This document shows positions 11,077 through 17,588 of a DNA stretch of 57,249 nucleotides, in pieces. The first letter of the stretch is position 1; each line of letters begins with the position of its first letter. Below the pieces are notes generated by a model. That model saw only the letters and a program-made list of their open reading frames with translations, did not search any database and was not told where the DNA came from. The position numbers were made by a program, and so were the translations under genes. Origin of the DNA: Flavobacteriales bacterium (GTDB lineage Bacteria; Bacteroidota; Bacteroidia; Flavobacteriales; BACL11); NCBI GenBank assembly GCA_014239655.1, contig JAAZYM010000051.1, positions 1 to 57,249 of the forward strand, written 5' to 3'.

Positions 11077-11370
11077 TTAAATATCTAATTGTCTTTCAAT
11101 CTCTTCCATATCAATAAAATCATATGCTTCCTGTAAGGTAGGTACAATATTTAAAGTTTCATCGAAATCGATGTCACTCACAATAACAAAAGATCCTTTA
11201 TTAGCACATACAATTTCTCCAAATTTAATAAATTTATCTATTAACAGATTATGTTTACCTTTTTCTAATCCAGATAAATTTGCAATAAAATTTAGCACAT
11301 CTGTATTAGACTGTAATTTTGAGAAATCATTCTGATCTGTTATCCGAAAAACTAAAGTATTATTATTCAT
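11077..11370 (-). CDS. Conserved small protein, possibly STAS-like
   Basis: 97 residues from the preferred ATG at 11370 (MNNNTLVFRITD); the ORF-track start at 11421 would add 17 residues deep inside pyrB. The C-terminal half (KGSFVIVSDIDFDETLNIVPTLQEAYDFIDMEEIERQLD) resembles the end of small STAS-domain-like proteins found beside rnz in Bacteroidota; the N-terminal half is weak. Such proteins are often anti-anti-sigma-like, but the usual phosphorylatable Asp-Ser motif is not visible here, so a signalling role is only a guess. It overlaps pyrB by 8 bases. Confidence 0.65.
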   Translation of the reverse strand: MNNNTLVFRITDQNDFSKLQSNTDVLNFIANLSGLEKGKHNLLIDKFIKFGEIVCANKGSFVIVSDIDFDETLNIVPTLQEAYDFIDMEEIERQLDI

Positions 11371-12295
11371 TTGATTTATTAGATAATAAATATAAAACTG
11401 CCATCCTAATTGCAACTCCATTCTCTACTTGATCAAGTATAAGTGAGTGATGAGAATCAGCAACTTCAGAAGTTAACTCGACTCCTCTATTAATTGGACC
11501 TGGATGCATAATTGTAATTTCTTTTGTTAAACTTTCTAGAATAGTCGAGTTTATCCCATATACATTTGTATATTCTCTTAATGAAGGAAACAACTGCACA
11601 TCTTGCCTTTCAAGCTGAATTCTTAAAACATTCGCTATATCACACCAATTTAAAGCTTCCTTAAGATCTGAGAAATAACTAACACCCAAATCATCAAGAT
11701 ACTTTGGTATTAATGTTAATGGACCGCATACAGCCACCTTAGCTCCTAGCATCTTTAAGCAAAAGATATTTGATAATGCAACTCTAGAATGCAAAATATC
11801 TCCAATAATAACTACTTTCTTTGATGCTACCTGTCCAAATCTTTCTCTAATAGAATATGCATCTAATAATGCTTGTGTAGGGTGCTCATGGGTACCATCT
11901 CCAGCATTTATAATACTTGCATTAATATTTCTAGACAAGAAAATAGATGCACCTGGATTAGGATGGCGCATAACAACAATATCAACCTTCATTGCAAGAA
12001 TATTATTCACTGTATCTAATAATGATTCTCCTTTCTTAACCGAAGAAGCAGCAGATGCAAAATTTATAATATCTGCTGACAATCTTTTTTCTGCTATCTC
12101 AAATGACAACTTAGTTCTGGTAGAATTTTCAAAAAATAAATTAGCAATTGTGACATCTCTTAATGATGGTACTTTTTTAATAGGCTGATTAATAATCTTT
12201 TTAAAATTATCTGCCGTATTAAAAATAATATCTATATCTTTCTTATTTAGATATTTTATCCCAAGCAAATGATTAACTGATAAATGATCCATCAT
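11363..12295 (-). CDS. pyrB: Aspartate carbamoyltransferase catalytic subunit
   Basis: Joins carbamoyl phosphate and aspartate, the committed step of pyrimidine synthesis. Motifs: FFENSTRTKLSFE (carbamoyl-phosphate loop, about residue 50), MRHPNPGAS, HPTQALLDAYSI, and HPGPINRGVEL near 265. The 310 residues are standard. The ORF track starts at a TTG (12298); I take the ATG at 12295, which overlaps the pyrR stop as TGATG (one base). No pyrI regulatory subunit gene is nearby, so this may be an unregulated or dihydroorotase-associated type (inference). Confidence 0.95.
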   Translation of the reverse strand: MMDHLSVNHLLGIKYLNKKDIDIIFNTADNFKKIINQPIKKVPSLRDVTIANLFFENSTRTKLSFEIAEKRLSADIINFASAASSVKKGESLLDTVNNILAMKVDIVVMRHPNPGASIFLSRNINASIINAGDGTHEHPTQALLDAYSIRERFGQVASKKVVIIGDILHSRVALSNIFCLKMLGAKVAVCGPLTLIPKYLDDLGVSYFSDLKEALNWCDIANVLRIQLERQDVQLFPSLREYTNVYGINSTILESLTKEITIMHPGPINRGVELTSEVADSHHSLILDQVENGVAIRMAVLYLLSNKSNE

Positions 12296-12831
12296 CAAGA
12301 TTTCAGGATTAAGATATTATCATCACCATCATTTGTAATGTTAACCACAACCTTCTCAGAGTCAATTGAATCAACAATTTTCCCTACATAATCTGGTTGA
12401 ATTGGTAAGTGCCTACTTAATCTTCTATCAACAAAAACTAATAACTCAATAGATTTAGGTCTCCCAAAAGGCATTAATGCATCAATAGCAGAACGAACTG
12501 ATCTTCCAGTATATAAAACATCGTCAATGATAACCACATGCTTCTCATCAACTGAAACATTCATTTCCATTTTATGTGGAATAATCGGTTCTGAATGCCT
12601 TCTTAAATCATCCCTATAAAAAGAAATATCTAGTTCTCCATAATTAATTTTATACTCAAGAATTTGCTCTAATCTATTCACAATCCTTCTCGCAACATGT
12701 TTTCCTCTAGGAAGTAAAGAAACAATAACAGTATCTGAAAAATCATTATGATTTTCTATTAATTCATGACATAACCTTTTAATAATTATATTAATTTGCT
12801 TCTTATTTAATATTTTTCTCTTATTACTCAT
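12295..12831 (-). CDS. pyrR: PyrR-family phosphoribosyltransferase
   Basis: PyrR proteins have uracil phosphoribosyltransferase activity and in some Firmicutes also act as mRNA-binding attenuators of pyr operons. The PRPP motif is VVIIDDVLYTGRSVRSAIDAL (about residue 98); VSLLPRGKHVARRI and ELDISFYRDDL also fit. I use the ATG at 12831 (MSNKRK); the ORF-track start at 12840 is a GTG three codons earlier that lies on the promoter element. It heads the pyrR-pyrB operon. Its transcript has almost no 5' leader, so attenuation in front of this operon looks impossible (see findings). Confidence 0.93.
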   Translation of the reverse strand: MSNKRKILNKKQINIIIKRLCHELIENHNDFSDTVIVSLLPRGKHVARRIVNRLEQILEYKINYGELDISFYRDDLRRHSEPIIPHKMEMNVSVDEKHVVIIDDVLYTGRSVRSAIDALMPFGRPKSIELLVFVDRRLSRHLPIQPDYVGKIVDSIDSEKVVVNITNDGDDNILILKS

Positions 12832-12839
12832 AGATACCA

Positions 12840-12847
12840 CAAATATA
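12840..12847 (-). promoter_or_regulatory. Putative -7 element (TATATTTG) of pyrR
   Basis: TATATTTG on the minus strand ends 8 bases before the pyrR ATG, so transcription would begin within a few bases of the start codon. The rpsA terminator hairpin lies directly upstream and occupies the place where a -33 element would be. Confidence 0.4.
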
Positions 12848-12880: not shown

Positions 12881-14845
12881 TTATTTTTCATCTTTTTCTA
12901 AATCATCCTTTAAAGCGGTTAAACTATCAAGATCCCCTAAGGTTGATTGCTGCTGTGAATCTTGAATCTCCTTAACAGCATTTTTTGTCTTGGTAACTTT
13001 CTTTTTCTCTTCTTTAACCATCTCATCTTTAAATAAAACTGTATGAGAAACTAAAATTTTCTTACTTTCCTTAGAAAAATCTATAACTCTAAATTTCAAA
13101 GACTCATCTAATCTAGCTTTGGAACCATCCTCCTTCTCTAAATGACGCTTTGGAGAAAACGCCTCTATATCATTATTCAATTTCACTAAGGATCCCTTGT
13201 CGTATTCTTCAATAACAACACCATCAAAATCATTACCTACCAAATATATTTTTGCATATTTGTCCCATGGATTCTCTTCAGTCTGCTTATGTCCCAAACT
13301 AATTTTTCTGTTATTTTTATCAATATCCAAAACAATAACATCTAAATTAGCATCAACATTAGTAAACTCTGCAGGATGTTTAATTTTCTTATGCCAAGAA
13401 AGATCTGAAATATGTACTAGCCCATCAACTCCTTCTTCTAACTCAACAAAAATCCCGAAATTAGTAAAATTACGAACCTTTACAGTTAATTTAGAATTAA
13501 GCGGATATTTAGTCTCAATATCTCCCCATGGATCTGGTAACATTTGTTTAAGTCCTAATGACATTTTTCTTTGTTCTCTATCTAATGTTAAGATCTTAGC
13601 CTCTACTTCATCTCCTTTACTAAAGAAATCATTTGCACTTCTAAGATGTGTTGACCATGACATTTCTGAAACATGTAATAAAGCCTCTACACCTGCCTGT
13701 AATTCAACAAAGACTCCATAATCTGCTACTACTACTACTTTACCTTTTACTATATCACCAACATCTATTTTCTCATCAAGATCCTGCCATGGATGAGACC
13801 CTAATTGTTTAAGTCCTAACTGTATCCTGCTCTTACCTTCATCGAAATCTAGAATAACAACATTGATTGTTTCATCTAATGAAACAATCTCCTCAGGATG
13901 TGATACTCTTCCCCATGATAAATCAGTAATGTGAATTAATCCATCAATACCACCTAAATCAACAAAAACACCGTAAGAAGTAATGTTTTTAACTGTACCT
14001 TCAATTACCTGTCCCTTTTCTAATTTAGACATTATCTCTTTAGTTTGAATAGCTAAATCTGCTTCAATTAATGCCTTATGAGAAACAACAACATTTCTAA
14101 ATGACTCATTAACTTTTACAATCTTAAATTCCATCTTTCTTCCAACATACTCATCATAATCACGAATTGGTTTAACATCTATTTGAGAACCAGGTAAAAA
14201 GCATTCTATTCCAAATACATCGACAATCATTCCTCCTTTTGTTCTACTCTTGATTTGTCCATTAACAACCTCTCCTGTTTCTAAAGCAACATTAACCTTT
14301 TCCCAAGCACGTAACACCCTTGCTCTTCTATGGGAGAGAATAAGTTGGCCGTTTTTATCTTCTTGTTTCTCAACTAATACCTCAACAATATCGCCAACCT
14401 TTAAATCATCTTTATACTTAAACTCTGAACTAGAGATAACACCATCTGATTTGAAATTTATATCTACAATAATCTCCCTATCAGAAACATAAACAACAGT
14501 ACCATCAATAACTTGTTTAGATTCAACTACTGGCAATGTAGCTGAATACGTATCCATTAGATCTTTTCTTTCTTTATCACTATAGATCTCATTTTTAGTG
14601 ATATCATCCCAATTGAATTCTTCAGTTATTACTTCTTTAACCTCTTCAACTACTTCAGGTGTTGATTCTTTAACCTCTTCAACTACTTCAAGTGTTGATT
14701 CTTTAACCTCTTCAACTACTTCAGGTGTTAATTCTTTAACTCTATTCTTTGGTGATTTTTTCTTTGATTCTACAGAAGATTTCTGTTTAGAAGCTATCTT
14801 TTTTTCTGTAGCCTCTTCTTTATCTGATTCTTGTTTTTTAGACAT
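12881..14845 (-). CDS. rpsA: 30S ribosomal protein S1
   Basis: The 654-residue protein recruits mRNA to the 30S subunit. After a charged N-terminal extension of about 95 residues, six S1 (OB-fold) domains follow, starting near 105, 190, 278, 365, 450 and 540; domains 3-5 are the most canonical, for example EGTVKNITSYGVFVDLGGIDGLIHITDLSW. The extension carries three near-identical 11-residue units (PEVVEEVKEST), encoded by 33-base repeats. The C-terminal ~40 residues are lysine-rich. It has its own promoter, a 5' leader with an upstream ORF, and a strong terminator. Confidence 0.96.
   Translation of the reverse strand: MSKKQESDKEEATEKKIASKQKSSVESKKKSPKNRVKELTPEVVEEVKESTLEVVEEVKESTPEVVEEVKEVITEEFNWDDITKNEIYSDKERKDLMDTYSATLPVVESKQVIDGTVVYVSDREIIVDINFKSDGVISSSEFKYKDDLKVGDIVEVLVEKQEDKNGQLILSHRRARVLRAWEKVNVALETGEVVNGQIKSRTKGGMIVDVFGIECFLPGSQIDVKPIRDYDEYVGRKMEFKIVKVNESFRNVVVSHKALIEADLAIQTKEIMSKLEKGQVIEGTVKNITSYGVFVDLGGIDGLIHITDLSWGRVSHPEEIVSLDETINVVILDFDEGKSRIQLGLKQLGSHPWQDLDEKIDVGDIVKGKVVVVADYGVFVELQAGVEALLHVSEMSWSTHLRSANDFFSKGDEVEAKILTLDREQRKMSLGLKQMLPDPWGDIETKYPLNSKLTVKVRNFTNFGIFVELEEGVDGLVHISDLSWHKKIKHPAEFTNVDANLDVIVLDIDKNNRKISLGHKQTEENPWDKYAKIYLVGNDFDGVVIEEYDKGSLVKLNNDIEAFSPKRHLEKEDGSKARLDESLKFRVIDFSKESKKILVSHTVLFKDEMVKEEKKKVTKTKNAVKEIQDSQQQSTLGDLDSLTALKDDLEKDEK
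14640..14738. repeat. Three tandem 33-base repeats inside rpsA
   Basis: Three head-to-tail copies start at 14640, 14673 and 14706, each like ACCTCTTCAACTACTTCAGG followed by TGTTGATTCTTTA, differing at only one or two bases. They encode 11-residue acidic units in the linker before the first S1 domain. The near identity suggests recent expansion and possible copy-number variation between strains. Confidence 0.95.
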
Positions 14846-14864
14846 TTCAAGAAAATAATTTGTA

Positions 14865-14906
14865 TCTTCAATCTACCGTTAAGACTTAGATGTCAATAGA
14901 CGAAGA
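14865..14906 (-). promoter_or_regulatory. Hairpin in the rpsA 5' leader
   Basis: On the minus strand TCTTC-G-TCTA pairs with TAGA-TT-GAAGA around a 21-base loop (nine pairs with a 1x2 internal loop). It lies 20 bases before the rpsA start codon and overlaps the stop of the upstream ORF. A control site for rpsA translation is possible; this is inference from position. Confidence 0.4.
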
Positions 14907-14929
14907 GTATTTCTATTTGTTTTTCTCAT
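14879..14929 (-). CDS. Possible 16-codon upstream ORF (leader peptide) of rpsA
   Basis: ATG at 14929-14927 opens MRKTNRNTLRLLTSKS, ending at TAA 14881-14879, in the leader between the rpsA promoter and the rpsA start. It is basic and too short to be judged by composition. Its stop codon falls in the loop of the 14865-14906 hairpin, so ribosomes on it would unfold the hairpin. It could equally be chance; no database support was available. Confidence 0.25.
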   Translation of the reverse strand: MRKTNRNTLRLLTSKS

Positions 14930-14963
14930 TTAATTGTCTCAACACACATCATTAAATGGGCGG

Positions 14964-14996
14964 CAAATATACATTATTATTTCCATATAAATACAA
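14964..14996 (-). promoter_or_regulatory. Putative rpsA promoter
   Basis: The minus strand has TTG (14996-14994), 22 bases, then TATATTTG (14971-14964), followed by CCGCCC. The -7 element is perfect; the spacing is slightly longer than the usual 19-21. The sequence TTTGCCGCCC recurs exactly at the rpsF promoter. It predicts an rpsA leader of about 110 bases. Confidence 0.5.
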
Positions 14997-15005
14997 GGAA
15001 TTTCA

Positions 15006-15878
15006 TCAGTACCTGTTTATATGTGTAGCAACATTATTCATTAACCATCTTGGAGTAGAAGTTGCTCCACAAATACCAACAGTTACAGCATCCTTAAACC
15101 AATCTTTATTTATATCTCTAACATCTGATATAAAGTAAGAATATTTATTTTGATCTTTACAAGATGTAAAAAGCATCTTCCCATTTGAACTTTTAGTTCC
15201 ACTTACAAAGATAATAACATCATTTTCGCTAGCAAACTGCTTTAATTGAGGTTCTCTTCCTGAAACTTGTCTACATAATGTGTCGTGTACTACAAATTTC
15301 AAATCATCATTTCTTCCTAAAGCAGATAGATTATCCTTAATCTCATCTATAATCGATTGAAATGCTTTTGGGCTTTTTGTAGTCTGAGAATAAATATAAA
15401 TTGGTTTTTTATAATCTATCTTATACAAATCTTCTTTCGTTGTAACAATGATTGCTTCTCCATTTGTTTGCCCAACAAGACCTATCACTTCAGCATGTCC
15501 TTCTTTCCCATAAATAATTATCTGCCCATCAACCTCGCCTGCTTTCTCATAGCCTTCTTTAATCTGATGTTGAAGCTTTAAAACCACAGGACATGAGGCA
15601 TCAAGTAGCTCAATATTATTCCTTAAAGCAACCTCATAAGTAGATGGAGGCTCCCCATGAGCCCTTATTAACACCCTACAATTTGAAAGACTATTTAACC
15701 TTTTATGATCAATTATTTCGAGGCCAAGACGATTCAATCTGTCAATCTCTTTATTATTATGCACTATATCCCCAAGACAATAAAGTTTTTCTTCATTCTC
15801 CAATATATTTTCTGCCATTTCAATTGCATAAACTACACCAAAACAAAAACCAGAATTCTCGTCAATTGTTATTTTCAT
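15006..15878 (-). CDS. ispH: 4-hydroxy-3-methylbut-2-enyl diphosphate reductase
   Basis: Last enzyme of the MEP isoprenoid pathway; reduces HMBPP to IPP and DMAPP with a [4Fe-4S] cluster. Cluster cysteines are visible at C12 (NSGFCFGVV), in LDASCPVV (about 96) and VGICGATSTP (about 270), and the proton-donor Glu in GKEGHAEVIG (about 127). The 290 residues are typical. It overlaps cmk by 17 bases, so porQ, cmk and ispH form one transcriptional unit. The same three-gene order is known from Porphyromonas gingivalis. DMAPP made here is the substrate of MiaA encoded at 5372. Confidence 0.95.
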   Translation of the reverse strand: MKITIDENSGFCFGVVYAIEMAENILENEEKLYCLGDIVHNNKEIDRLNRLGLEIIDHKRLNSLSNCRVLIRAHGEPPSTYEVALRNNIELLDASCPVVLKLQHQIKEGYEKAGEVDGQIIIYGKEGHAEVIGLVGQTNGEAIIVTTKEDLYKIDYKKPIYIYSQTTKSPKAFQSIIDEIKDNLSALGRNDDLKFVVHDTLCRQVSGREPQLKQFASENDVIIFVSGTKSSNGKMLFTSCKDQNKYSYFISDVRDINKDWFKDAVTVGICGATSTPRWLMNNVATHINRY

Positions 15879-16566
15879 CTTGTTTCTGTTTTATTAAACT
15901 AAATATTAACTGATTCTGCTGCAAATAACTAAGTGATGTATTATCAATTACTATAGCATCATCTGATTTAACTAGTGGATTAATTTCTCTTTCAGTATCA
16001 TCAGTATCTCTTTTATTTAAATTAATTAAGATCTGATCAAATGTAATTAAATTATTATGCTTTATTAACTCATCAAAACGCCTCCTTGCTCTAGTATCTA
16101 TCTCTGCTGTAATAAAAAATTTTATATCAGCATCTGGCATAACCTTAGTTCCAATATCTCTTCCGTCCATAACAACATTCTTACTAGAACACATCCTTCT
16201 CTGAAAAGAAATTAATTTATCTCTTACTTCTTTTATTTGACTTATATTACTTACCTGATTAGAAACATTATTATCTCTAATTAGATGCTCAACATTTTTT
16301 CCATTTAATAACGTCTCAGTAATATTTAAGTCTATGTTATAATAAAAGTCAATATCTATATCATCTATAGATCTTAATAATTTATCATAATTTATCTTTG
16401 AATTTGATATAATCTTATGATTCATAAAAAACAATGTCACTGCTCTATACATTGCTCCAGAATCTACATATTTCATGTTAAATTCTTTAGATACACTCTT
16501 AGCTATAGAGCTCTTTCCACATGATGAATATCCATCAATAGCAATATTAATTAATTTATTTTTCAT
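15862..16566 (-). CDS. cmk: Cytidylate kinase
   Basis: Phosphorylates CMP and dCMP. The P-loop is IAIDGYSSCGKSS near the N-terminus, followed by VDSGAMYRAVTL; the CMP/lid region has VVMDGRDIGTKVMPDADIKFFITA (about 137) and ARRRFDEL. The 234 residues fit the family. Start ATG at 16566 overlaps the porQ stop as ATGA, and the 3' end overlaps ispH. Confidence 0.94.
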   Translation of the reverse strand: MKNKLINIAIDGYSSCGKSSIAKSVSKEFNMKYVDSGAMYRAVTLFFMNHKIISNSKINYDKLLRSIDDIDIDFYYNIDLNITETLLNGKNVEHLIRDNNVSNQVSNISQIKEVRDKLISFQRRMCSSKNVVMDGRDIGTKVMPDADIKFFITAEIDTRARRRFDELIKHNNLITFDQILINLNKRDTDDTEREINPLVKSDDAIVIDNTSLSYLQQNQLIFSLIKQKQDENNN

Positions 16567-17588
16567 AGACCAAATGTACTTAGATTTGTAGTAATATTAA
16601 AAGTATTAACCTTGCCAGATAAATGGAAAGCAGATCTACTATAATTAAATCTAATCTTTGAAACATTCATCCCAACACCAAATGAAAAACCAACCATACC
16701 GGCAAATGAATCAATTATCATATCAAATCTTTTCTGAAAGTTAAAACCTCCTTGAATAAAAAGATTATTTTTAAATAAATCTAATTCTCCAGAAAGAATA
16801 ACATGACGTAACATTGTCTTTGCTATACTTTCTTTTCTGTATTCTATCTCACCCGTTTCATTATTAGTAAAACTATTCAATGAATAGTCATTACTAATAT
16901 CAAATTTATTCAAATGACGCAATACTATAGAATATCTTAATGGTAAATGATCTAGTTTTTTACTTAATCCAAGTTGCACCTCAAATGGAACTATCTCCTC
17001 TATTGACGTATATGATTTTATTTGCTTACCAATATTTTTCAACAGCAAGGTAGTAGTTAAAGATTTTTCCTTATTAAAATAAGTCGATGAAACATTAGAT
17101 AAGATTGCCAGAGCTTGATAACTCTCATAATTTGAATTTAACAACCTTATATTTACACCCAAACTTATTTTATCATTAAGAGGTCTCCCATATCCAAAAG
17201 CATATGTTTGATCACTAGCATTAAAAGTTAAATCTTGGTTACCTGTCTCGTCAGTAGAGATAAAGTCTCCATAACTACAGGAATTAAAACTAATTGTAAA
17301 ACATCCATTCTTCTCTAATGACTTAGAATAAAGAAAAGAACCCATATTTATATCAGAGAAATAATCTACAAAACTAAACCCTAAATATTTATCCATTCTG
17401 TTGTTTAAAATAGAAGGAACTGATTGGGCCATAAAAATATCATTATCATATATAGAGATAAGATTACCTCCCATAGCTAATGATCGTGCAGAAAAATCTA
17501 GATTAACAAAAGAAAATGAATTATTTCCATTTTGTGAACAAACAACAAAAGGGGTCAATAAAAATATAAGAAACAATCTTATGTTCAT
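16563..17588 (-). CDS. porQ: Type IX secretion system protein PorQ
   Basis: An outer-membrane beta-barrel component of type IX secretion; in the known system PorQ works with PorU, PorV and PorZ in cargo maturation and anchoring. A signal peptide (MNIRLFLIFLLTPFVVCSQ) is followed by FVNLDFSARSLAMGGNLISIYDNDI, the FadL/PorV-like start, and then by alternating barrel strands to the last residue. The 341 residues match PorQ, as does the location upstream of cmk and ispH. It supplies the machinery side for the two T9SS cargo genes at 6264 and 10294. Confidence 0.88.
   Translation of the reverse strand: MNIRLFLIFLLTPFVVCSQNGNNSFSFVNLDFSARSLAMGGNLISIYDNDIFMAQSVPSILNNRMDKYLGFSFVDYFSDINMGSFLYSKSLEKNGCFTISFNSCSYGDFISTDETGNQDLTFNASDQTYAFGYGRPLNDKISLGVNIRLLNSNYESYQALAILSNVSSTYFNKEKSLTTTLLLKNIGKQIKSYTSIEEIVPFEVQLGLSKKLDHLPLRYSIVLRHLNKFDISNDYSLNSFTNNETGEIEYRKESIAKTMLRHVILSGELDLFKNNLFIQGGFNFQKRFDMIIDSFAGMVGFSFGVGMNVSKIRFNYSRSAFHLSGKVNTFNITTNLSTFGL

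Follow-up and report, generated by a model that had tools for sequence, protein, structure and literature searches.

The leader of rpsA, the gene encoding ribosomal protein bS1, is most likely a previously undescribed leader controlling bS1 synthesis in the Flavobacteriales bacterium analyzed here (a 57,249-nucleotide stretch of contig JAAZYM010000051.1, referred to as the window), and covariation among its relatives indicates that this leader is a conserved RNA structure. The element lies consistently in the 5′ untranslated region of rpsA, once per genome, across Flavobacteriales. It comprises two hairpins, P1 and P2, whose loops are predicted to pair with each other through two crossing helices, A and B, and it ends in an AUACAAA box; control is probably exerted by bS1 itself. 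Translation in Bacteroidota initiates without Shine-Dalgarno pairing, and a contact of bS1 with the A-rich region upstream of the start has been proposed (PMC6847099). With its box beside that proposed contact, a conserved leader of bS1's own gene offers a natural substrate for testing both the recognition by bS1 and the setting of its level. It would also extend the range of predicted bS1 leaders beyond the gamma-proteobacteria; its doubly kissing fold is unusual and escapes single-sequence folding.

Architecture and covariation of the leader

The rpsA AUG is located at 14845-14843 on the minus strand, and all parts of the leader lie on that strand (Table 1). The AUACAAA box ends 13 nt before the AUG, and a Shine-Dalgarno element, which is not expected in Bacteroidota (PMC6847099), is absent before the gene (AAUUAUUUUCUUGAAAUG in the window). 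Aligned leaders from the same family and from other families of the order share one plan, namely, the -7 element, P1, the A/U-rich linker, P2, and the AUACAAA box, and the -7 element is found directly 5′ of P1, in the equivalent place, in nearly all of them. In Flavobacterium johnsoniae, transcription starts 4 to 5 nt downstream of the -7 element (PMC6847099); therefore, the predicted 5′ end of the RNA falls at approximately 14959-14958, at or one base before P1. The P1 arms are often CCUUUU and AAAAGG among the relatives (CAUUUAAU and AUUAAAUG in the window), and the linker is 81% A/U, versus 64% for the remaining leader (68 leaders). In L008, L010, and L012 (family f1, genus g15), a second in-frame ATG occurs 9 bases after the first in rpsA, and the true start is uncertain there.

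Table 1. Features of the rpsA leader and its surroundings, in window coordinates
Feature	Position	Strand	Partner or basis
rpsA (bS1, 654 aa), controlled gene	12881..14845	-	ORF
Conserved leader RNA element, whole	14859..14963	-	Covariance-model R2 match
-7 promoter element, TATATTTG	14964..14971	-	Fits TAHHTTTG consensus of F. johnsoniae (PMC6847099)
P1 5′ arm, CAUUUAAU	14951..14958	-	Partner 14934-14927
A strand GAUGU, P1 loop	14946..14950	-	Partner ACAUC 14893-14889
B strand UUGAGAC, P1 loop	14936..14942	-	Partner GUCUUAA 14885-14879
P1 3′ arm, AUUAAAUG; ends in the ATG of the reported upstream ORF	14927..14934	-	
A/U-rich single-stranded linker, P1 to P2	14907..14926	-	
P2 5′ arm, UCUUCGUCUA	14897..14906	-	
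A′ strand ACAUC, P2 loop	14889..14893	-	
B′ strand GUCUUAA, P2 loop; contains the upstream ORF stop codon 14881-14879	14879..14885	-	
P2 3′ arm, UAGAUUGAAGA, bulged U14871	14865..14875	-	
AUACAAA box, -20 to -14 relative to the start codon of rpsA	14859..14865	-	AUACAA invariant in aligned leaders
Reported 16-codon upstream ORF; judged a chance ORF, outside the element	14879..14929	-	Unconserved in genus

The first-pass annotation of this DNA had placed a nine-pair hairpin 20 bases before the rpsA start codon. That hairpin is P2; it is present, and its base does lie 20 nt 5′ of the first base of the start codon, although it has 10 pairs (one of them G-U) rather than nine: UCUUCG (14906-14901) pairs with UGAAGA (14870-14865) and UCUA (14900-14897) pairs with UAGA (14875-14872), with U14871 bulged. 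The annotation contained neither P1 nor the loop-loop helices A and B, all of which are present in the leader.

Approximately 110 rpsA leaders were compared. MAFFT alignments misplaced the P1 3′ arm, which was remedied with a six-sequence seed model and realignment. A covariance model (R1) built from six leaders, with the window excluded, recovered most of the other leaders, including that of the window (E = 7.8e-5, model E values being rough). In a 49-leader alignment fitted to P1 and P2 and not to A and B, 90.3% of the P1 and P2 cells were paired, 14 of the 18 pairs had changes on both sides, and 182 cells were changed on both sides, against 56 expected from shuffles; none of 500 shuffles reached any of the pairing or covariation measures, and sliding by 1 to 3 columns reduced the pairing to 36 to 56%. 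In this alignment, P1 cells were 88% paired, with six of nine pairs changed on both sides, and the outer five pairs of P2 were 99.6% paired, with compensatory change in four of them. The first-pass annotation held that a lack of base pairing in relatives would count against its proposal; on this check, the P2 hairpin comes through strongly. When the A and B columns were added, 82.0% of the cells were paired and 266 double changes were counted.

Folded alone by single-sequence energy minimization, the window leader is no more stable than its shuffles (z = +0.39), a result that is uninformative because much of the fold consists of loop-loop pairing, which is invisible to such programs. P1 and P2 of the window together evaluate to no more than -10.0 kcal/mol, whereas the computed energy of a nested fold containing additional pairs is more favorable (-18.4 kcal/mol). 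Since P1, P2, and B are A/U-rich in the window and weak on their own, the case depends on the relatives.

The arrangement of P1, loop-loop pairing, and P2 was found in nearly every leader searched. Helix B, UUGAGAC:GUCUUAA in the window, has seven pairs (one G-U), or nine with an extension, and its sequence varies widely while remaining complementary: UUAAGGC:GCCUUAA in L005, GUAAGAU:AUCUUAC in L004, ACAGGCU:AGCCUGU in L006, CAGAUUU:AAAUCUG in L102, GGUUUGA:UCAAACC in L108, and UUUUGCAGGC:GCCUGCAAAA in L088. Helix A is shorter (GAUGU:ACAUC in the window; AUGG:CCAU in L021, GCGC:GCGC in L090, AACGA:UCGUU in L105, and GCGGAU:AUCCGC in L081) and occurs in most lineages; in each of the two loops its strand precedes that of B, and the resulting order, A, B, A′, B′, means that the two helices cross.

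Both helices were assessed by a swap test on 108 leaders, in which fixed regions were used and the partner region was exchanged between families. The best loop-loop duplex scored 16.35, versus 13.30 with swapped partners (p = 3e-31), and helix A scored 10.55, versus 7.99 (p = 2e-22); both p values overstate the certainty, as the leaders are related and not independent. Three alternatives (the segments 3′ of B and of B′ paired with each other, and the two nested arrangements) gave no excess over swapped partners in the 108 leaders, and nested positions for helix A were therefore rejected. By family, the swap test gave no clear excess for helix A in f7, f14, and f2.

Distribution and relation to known leaders

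Relatives of rpsA are present in almost every sampled genome of the order and the class. In the genome from which the window derives, a whole-genome search with model R2, whose alignment included the window and whose E values are also rough, matched only the rpsA leader (E = 5.3e-7; next, 0.41), and no further copies were detected; the R1 match is independent of the window. Matches at E ≤ 0.1 occurred in 25 of 40 genomes of the order, one in each, and those for which the position of rpsA was known or fetched all lay upstream of rpsA, including three that were otherwise unplaced. The element was also found in independently fetched loci of Aquimarina, Winogradskyella, Mesonia, Aequorivita, and Subsaximicrobium, where A and B were changed yet complementary.

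Some lineages gave no match. The element was absent from the Prevotella and Hallella loci searched, and four reduced genomes of family f15 (G065, G076, G084, and G092; 0.3 to 0.6 Mb) had no leader-model match, though they encode rpsA. Four genomes of genus g17 (family f3) fell below the model threshold; in this genus P2, B, and the box can be made out by eye. A class-wide whole-genome model search was too coarse, scoring 20 candidates per genome and missing known positives, and breadth was therefore judged from the regions upstream of rpsA. In other orders of the class, a P2-type hairpin followed by the box was present in 15 of 40 rpsA leaders, and in the majority of these 15 the box lies 17 to 21 nt upstream of the AUG. 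The loops of these other-order leaders pair with an upstream stretch (14.4, versus 10.2 when swapped; p = 2e-6), as in L153, where AUUCGACA:UGUCGAAU lies inside GCUUG...CAAGC. Because P2, the box, and loop-loop pairing recur outside the order, this core is older than Flavobacteriales; the second helix, A, may be an elaboration on it. Eight leaders from other orders (L129, L139, L142, L143, L146, L151, L152, and L153) have a simple form with a single kissing loop and a shorter P1.

Rfam 15 covariance models yielded only subthreshold chance matches in the window and eight relatives, and no S1 leader in Bacteroidota was found in the open-licence PMC papers searched. Eckert and Weinberg (PMC7247131) predicted leaders for S4, S15, S16, and L13 in Bacteroidia/Flavobacteria and none for S1; like the element described here, these are covarying RNAs consistently upstream of a ribosomal protein gene in the same phylum. 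A transcriptome study of Flavobacterium psychrophilum reported 64 structured 5′ regions, and its text does not name rpsA (PMC9723704). The gamma-proteobacterial (Escherichia coli type) rpsA leader is likewise a structured region that lacks a Shine-Dalgarno element and whose product is bS1 (PMC10931766); the fold described by Boni and co-workers is a specific one, whose A/U-rich single strands are bound cooperatively by bS1 (PMC10931766). In contrast to that description, the present leader, as read from sequence comparison, links its two hairpins through loop-loop helices and has the AUACAAA box downstream of them. The autoregulation of bS21 (rpsU) in Flavobacteriales also links feedback on a ribosomal protein gene to Shine-Dalgarno-independent initiation, but there the mechanism relies on an extended Shine-Dalgarno sequence and on ribosomes without bS21 instead of on a folded leader (PMC9976891).

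Possible modes of control

We think it rather likely that this structured RNA acts in cis as a ribosomal protein leader that controls bS1 synthesis and through whose closed knot free bS1 represses its own gene. The protein prefers A/U-rich single strands and is a rather unspecific single-strand binder with little known sequence specificity; it might not recognize a knot, and another factor could be the ligand. It can be envisioned that, when bS1 is in excess of 30S subunits, the free protein would bind the folded leader, the A/U-rich linker, and the AUACAAA box and would hold the knot closed, so that 30S subunits have no access to the start site; with little bS1 in the cell, that site would be free and rpsA would be translated. 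Negative feedback by free bS1 is proposed by analogy with the rpsA leader of gamma-proteobacteria, where bS1 is an autogenous repressor that competes with 30S subunits (PMC10931766). Alternatively, the knot, being just upstream of the start, could be opened by 30S subunits that carry bS1; a block of loading by a bS1-clamped knot is preferred because it gives the right direction of feedback. In Bacteroidetes, bS1, domain 4 of which is located near -12 to -15, has been proposed to contact the A-rich stretch around -12/-13, and the AUACAAA box overlaps the edge of this region, the putative contact of 30S-bound bS1 (PMC6847099). With F. johnsoniae ribosomes, bS1 raised initiation about twofold on mRNA without a Shine-Dalgarno sequence (PMC9976891). 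It is quite possible, although we hold this broader reading only tentatively, that across the class Bacteroidia the two-hairpin knot with its two crossing loop-loop helices serves as an RNA sensor of bS1 that couples the supply of this protein to Shine-Dalgarno-independent initiation, with AUACAAA as the docking site of bS1.

We consider it unlikely, but worth weighing, that the same cis-regulatory RNA responds to a different ligand, such as another ribosomal protein (e.g., uS2, bS18, or bS21), the 30S subunit, or a small molecule. The conservation of a knotted fold points to a specific partner, bS1 has little known sequence specificity, and Bacteroidota regulate bS21 through ribosomes that lack it (PMC9976891); however, the element occurs on rpsA only, and the ligand of a ribosomal protein leader is usually taken to be the product of the regulated gene (PMC7247131). 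It is quite improbable that the structure is constitutive, acting as a 5′ hairpin clamp against decay of the rpsA mRNA, as a platform presenting AUACAAA for strong Shine-Dalgarno-independent initiation, or as both. The start of P1 coincides with the probable 5′ end or is no more than one nucleotide away from it, the box adjoins the putative mRNA contact of 30S-bound bS1, and rpsA is presumably highly expressed; nevertheless, stability alone would not require two crossing, freely covarying loop-loop helices on one gene only, and initiation generally suffers from structure close to the start (PMC6847099). The pairing is scarcely credible as a chance property of AT-rich leaders: the failure of single-sequence folding to exceed shuffles would fit such a view, whereas the covariation, the swap and slide controls, the single occurrence at rpsA, and the independently fetched named genera all stand against it.

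A switch in which translation of a 16-codon upstream ORF opens the hairpin, as the first-pass annotation had envisaged, is very improbable. The ORF does exist (MRKTNRNTLRLLTSKS, from the ATG at 14929-14927 through the TAA at 14881-14879), starting within the P1 3′ arm and stopping within strand B′, and the sequence agrees with the reported position of its stop codon inside the loop of the hairpin. The annotation held that lack of a conserved ATG and stop in relatives would count against the ORF, and neither is kept within the genus: among the same-genus leaders, whose RpsA proteins are 84 to 86% identical, L003 has no ATG ORF, L004 has only a one-codon ORF at that place, and L005 has a stop two codons after the equivalent ATG. 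Closed ATG ORFs of at least 10 codons were present in only 15 of 75 leaders, with unrelated lengths and positions, and 22% of dinucleotide shuffles of the window leader contained one of at least 16 codons. A leader peptide was rejected on this lack of conservation in genus and family and on the chance level; attenuation was ruled out as well, as no terminator-like site (intrinsic terminator) was found in 14000-17500. Judged from these comparisons, the ORF is accidental, and no peptide would be involved. Of the control switch for S1 that had been suggested, control by a structured leader is thus supported by the conservation, whereas the leader peptide and the opening of the hairpin by ribosomes translating it fall with the unconserved ORF.

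The rpsA locus and its neighbors

The element is linked to rpsA itself and not to the adjoining genes, since in many genomes ispH, the upstream gene, was not detected beside rpsA, and no pyrR match was found within 2.5 kb downstream of rpsA in L199 and L235, both of which have the element. The position of pyrR behind rpsA raised the possibility of a PyrR-binding leader, which was rejected on the evidence of the latter two loci. In the window, pyrR-like and pyrB-like genes are situated closely behind rpsA on the same strand (11363-12840, with a 40-bp gap), and pyrR was downstream of rpsA in 81 of the 111 loci tested. In the 5′ part of rpsA itself, a 33-bp unit is repeated in tandem three and one-third times (14633-14740), with copies that are 96% alike; it encodes an acidic VVEEVKEST repeat in a poorly conserved N-terminal extension of RpsA.
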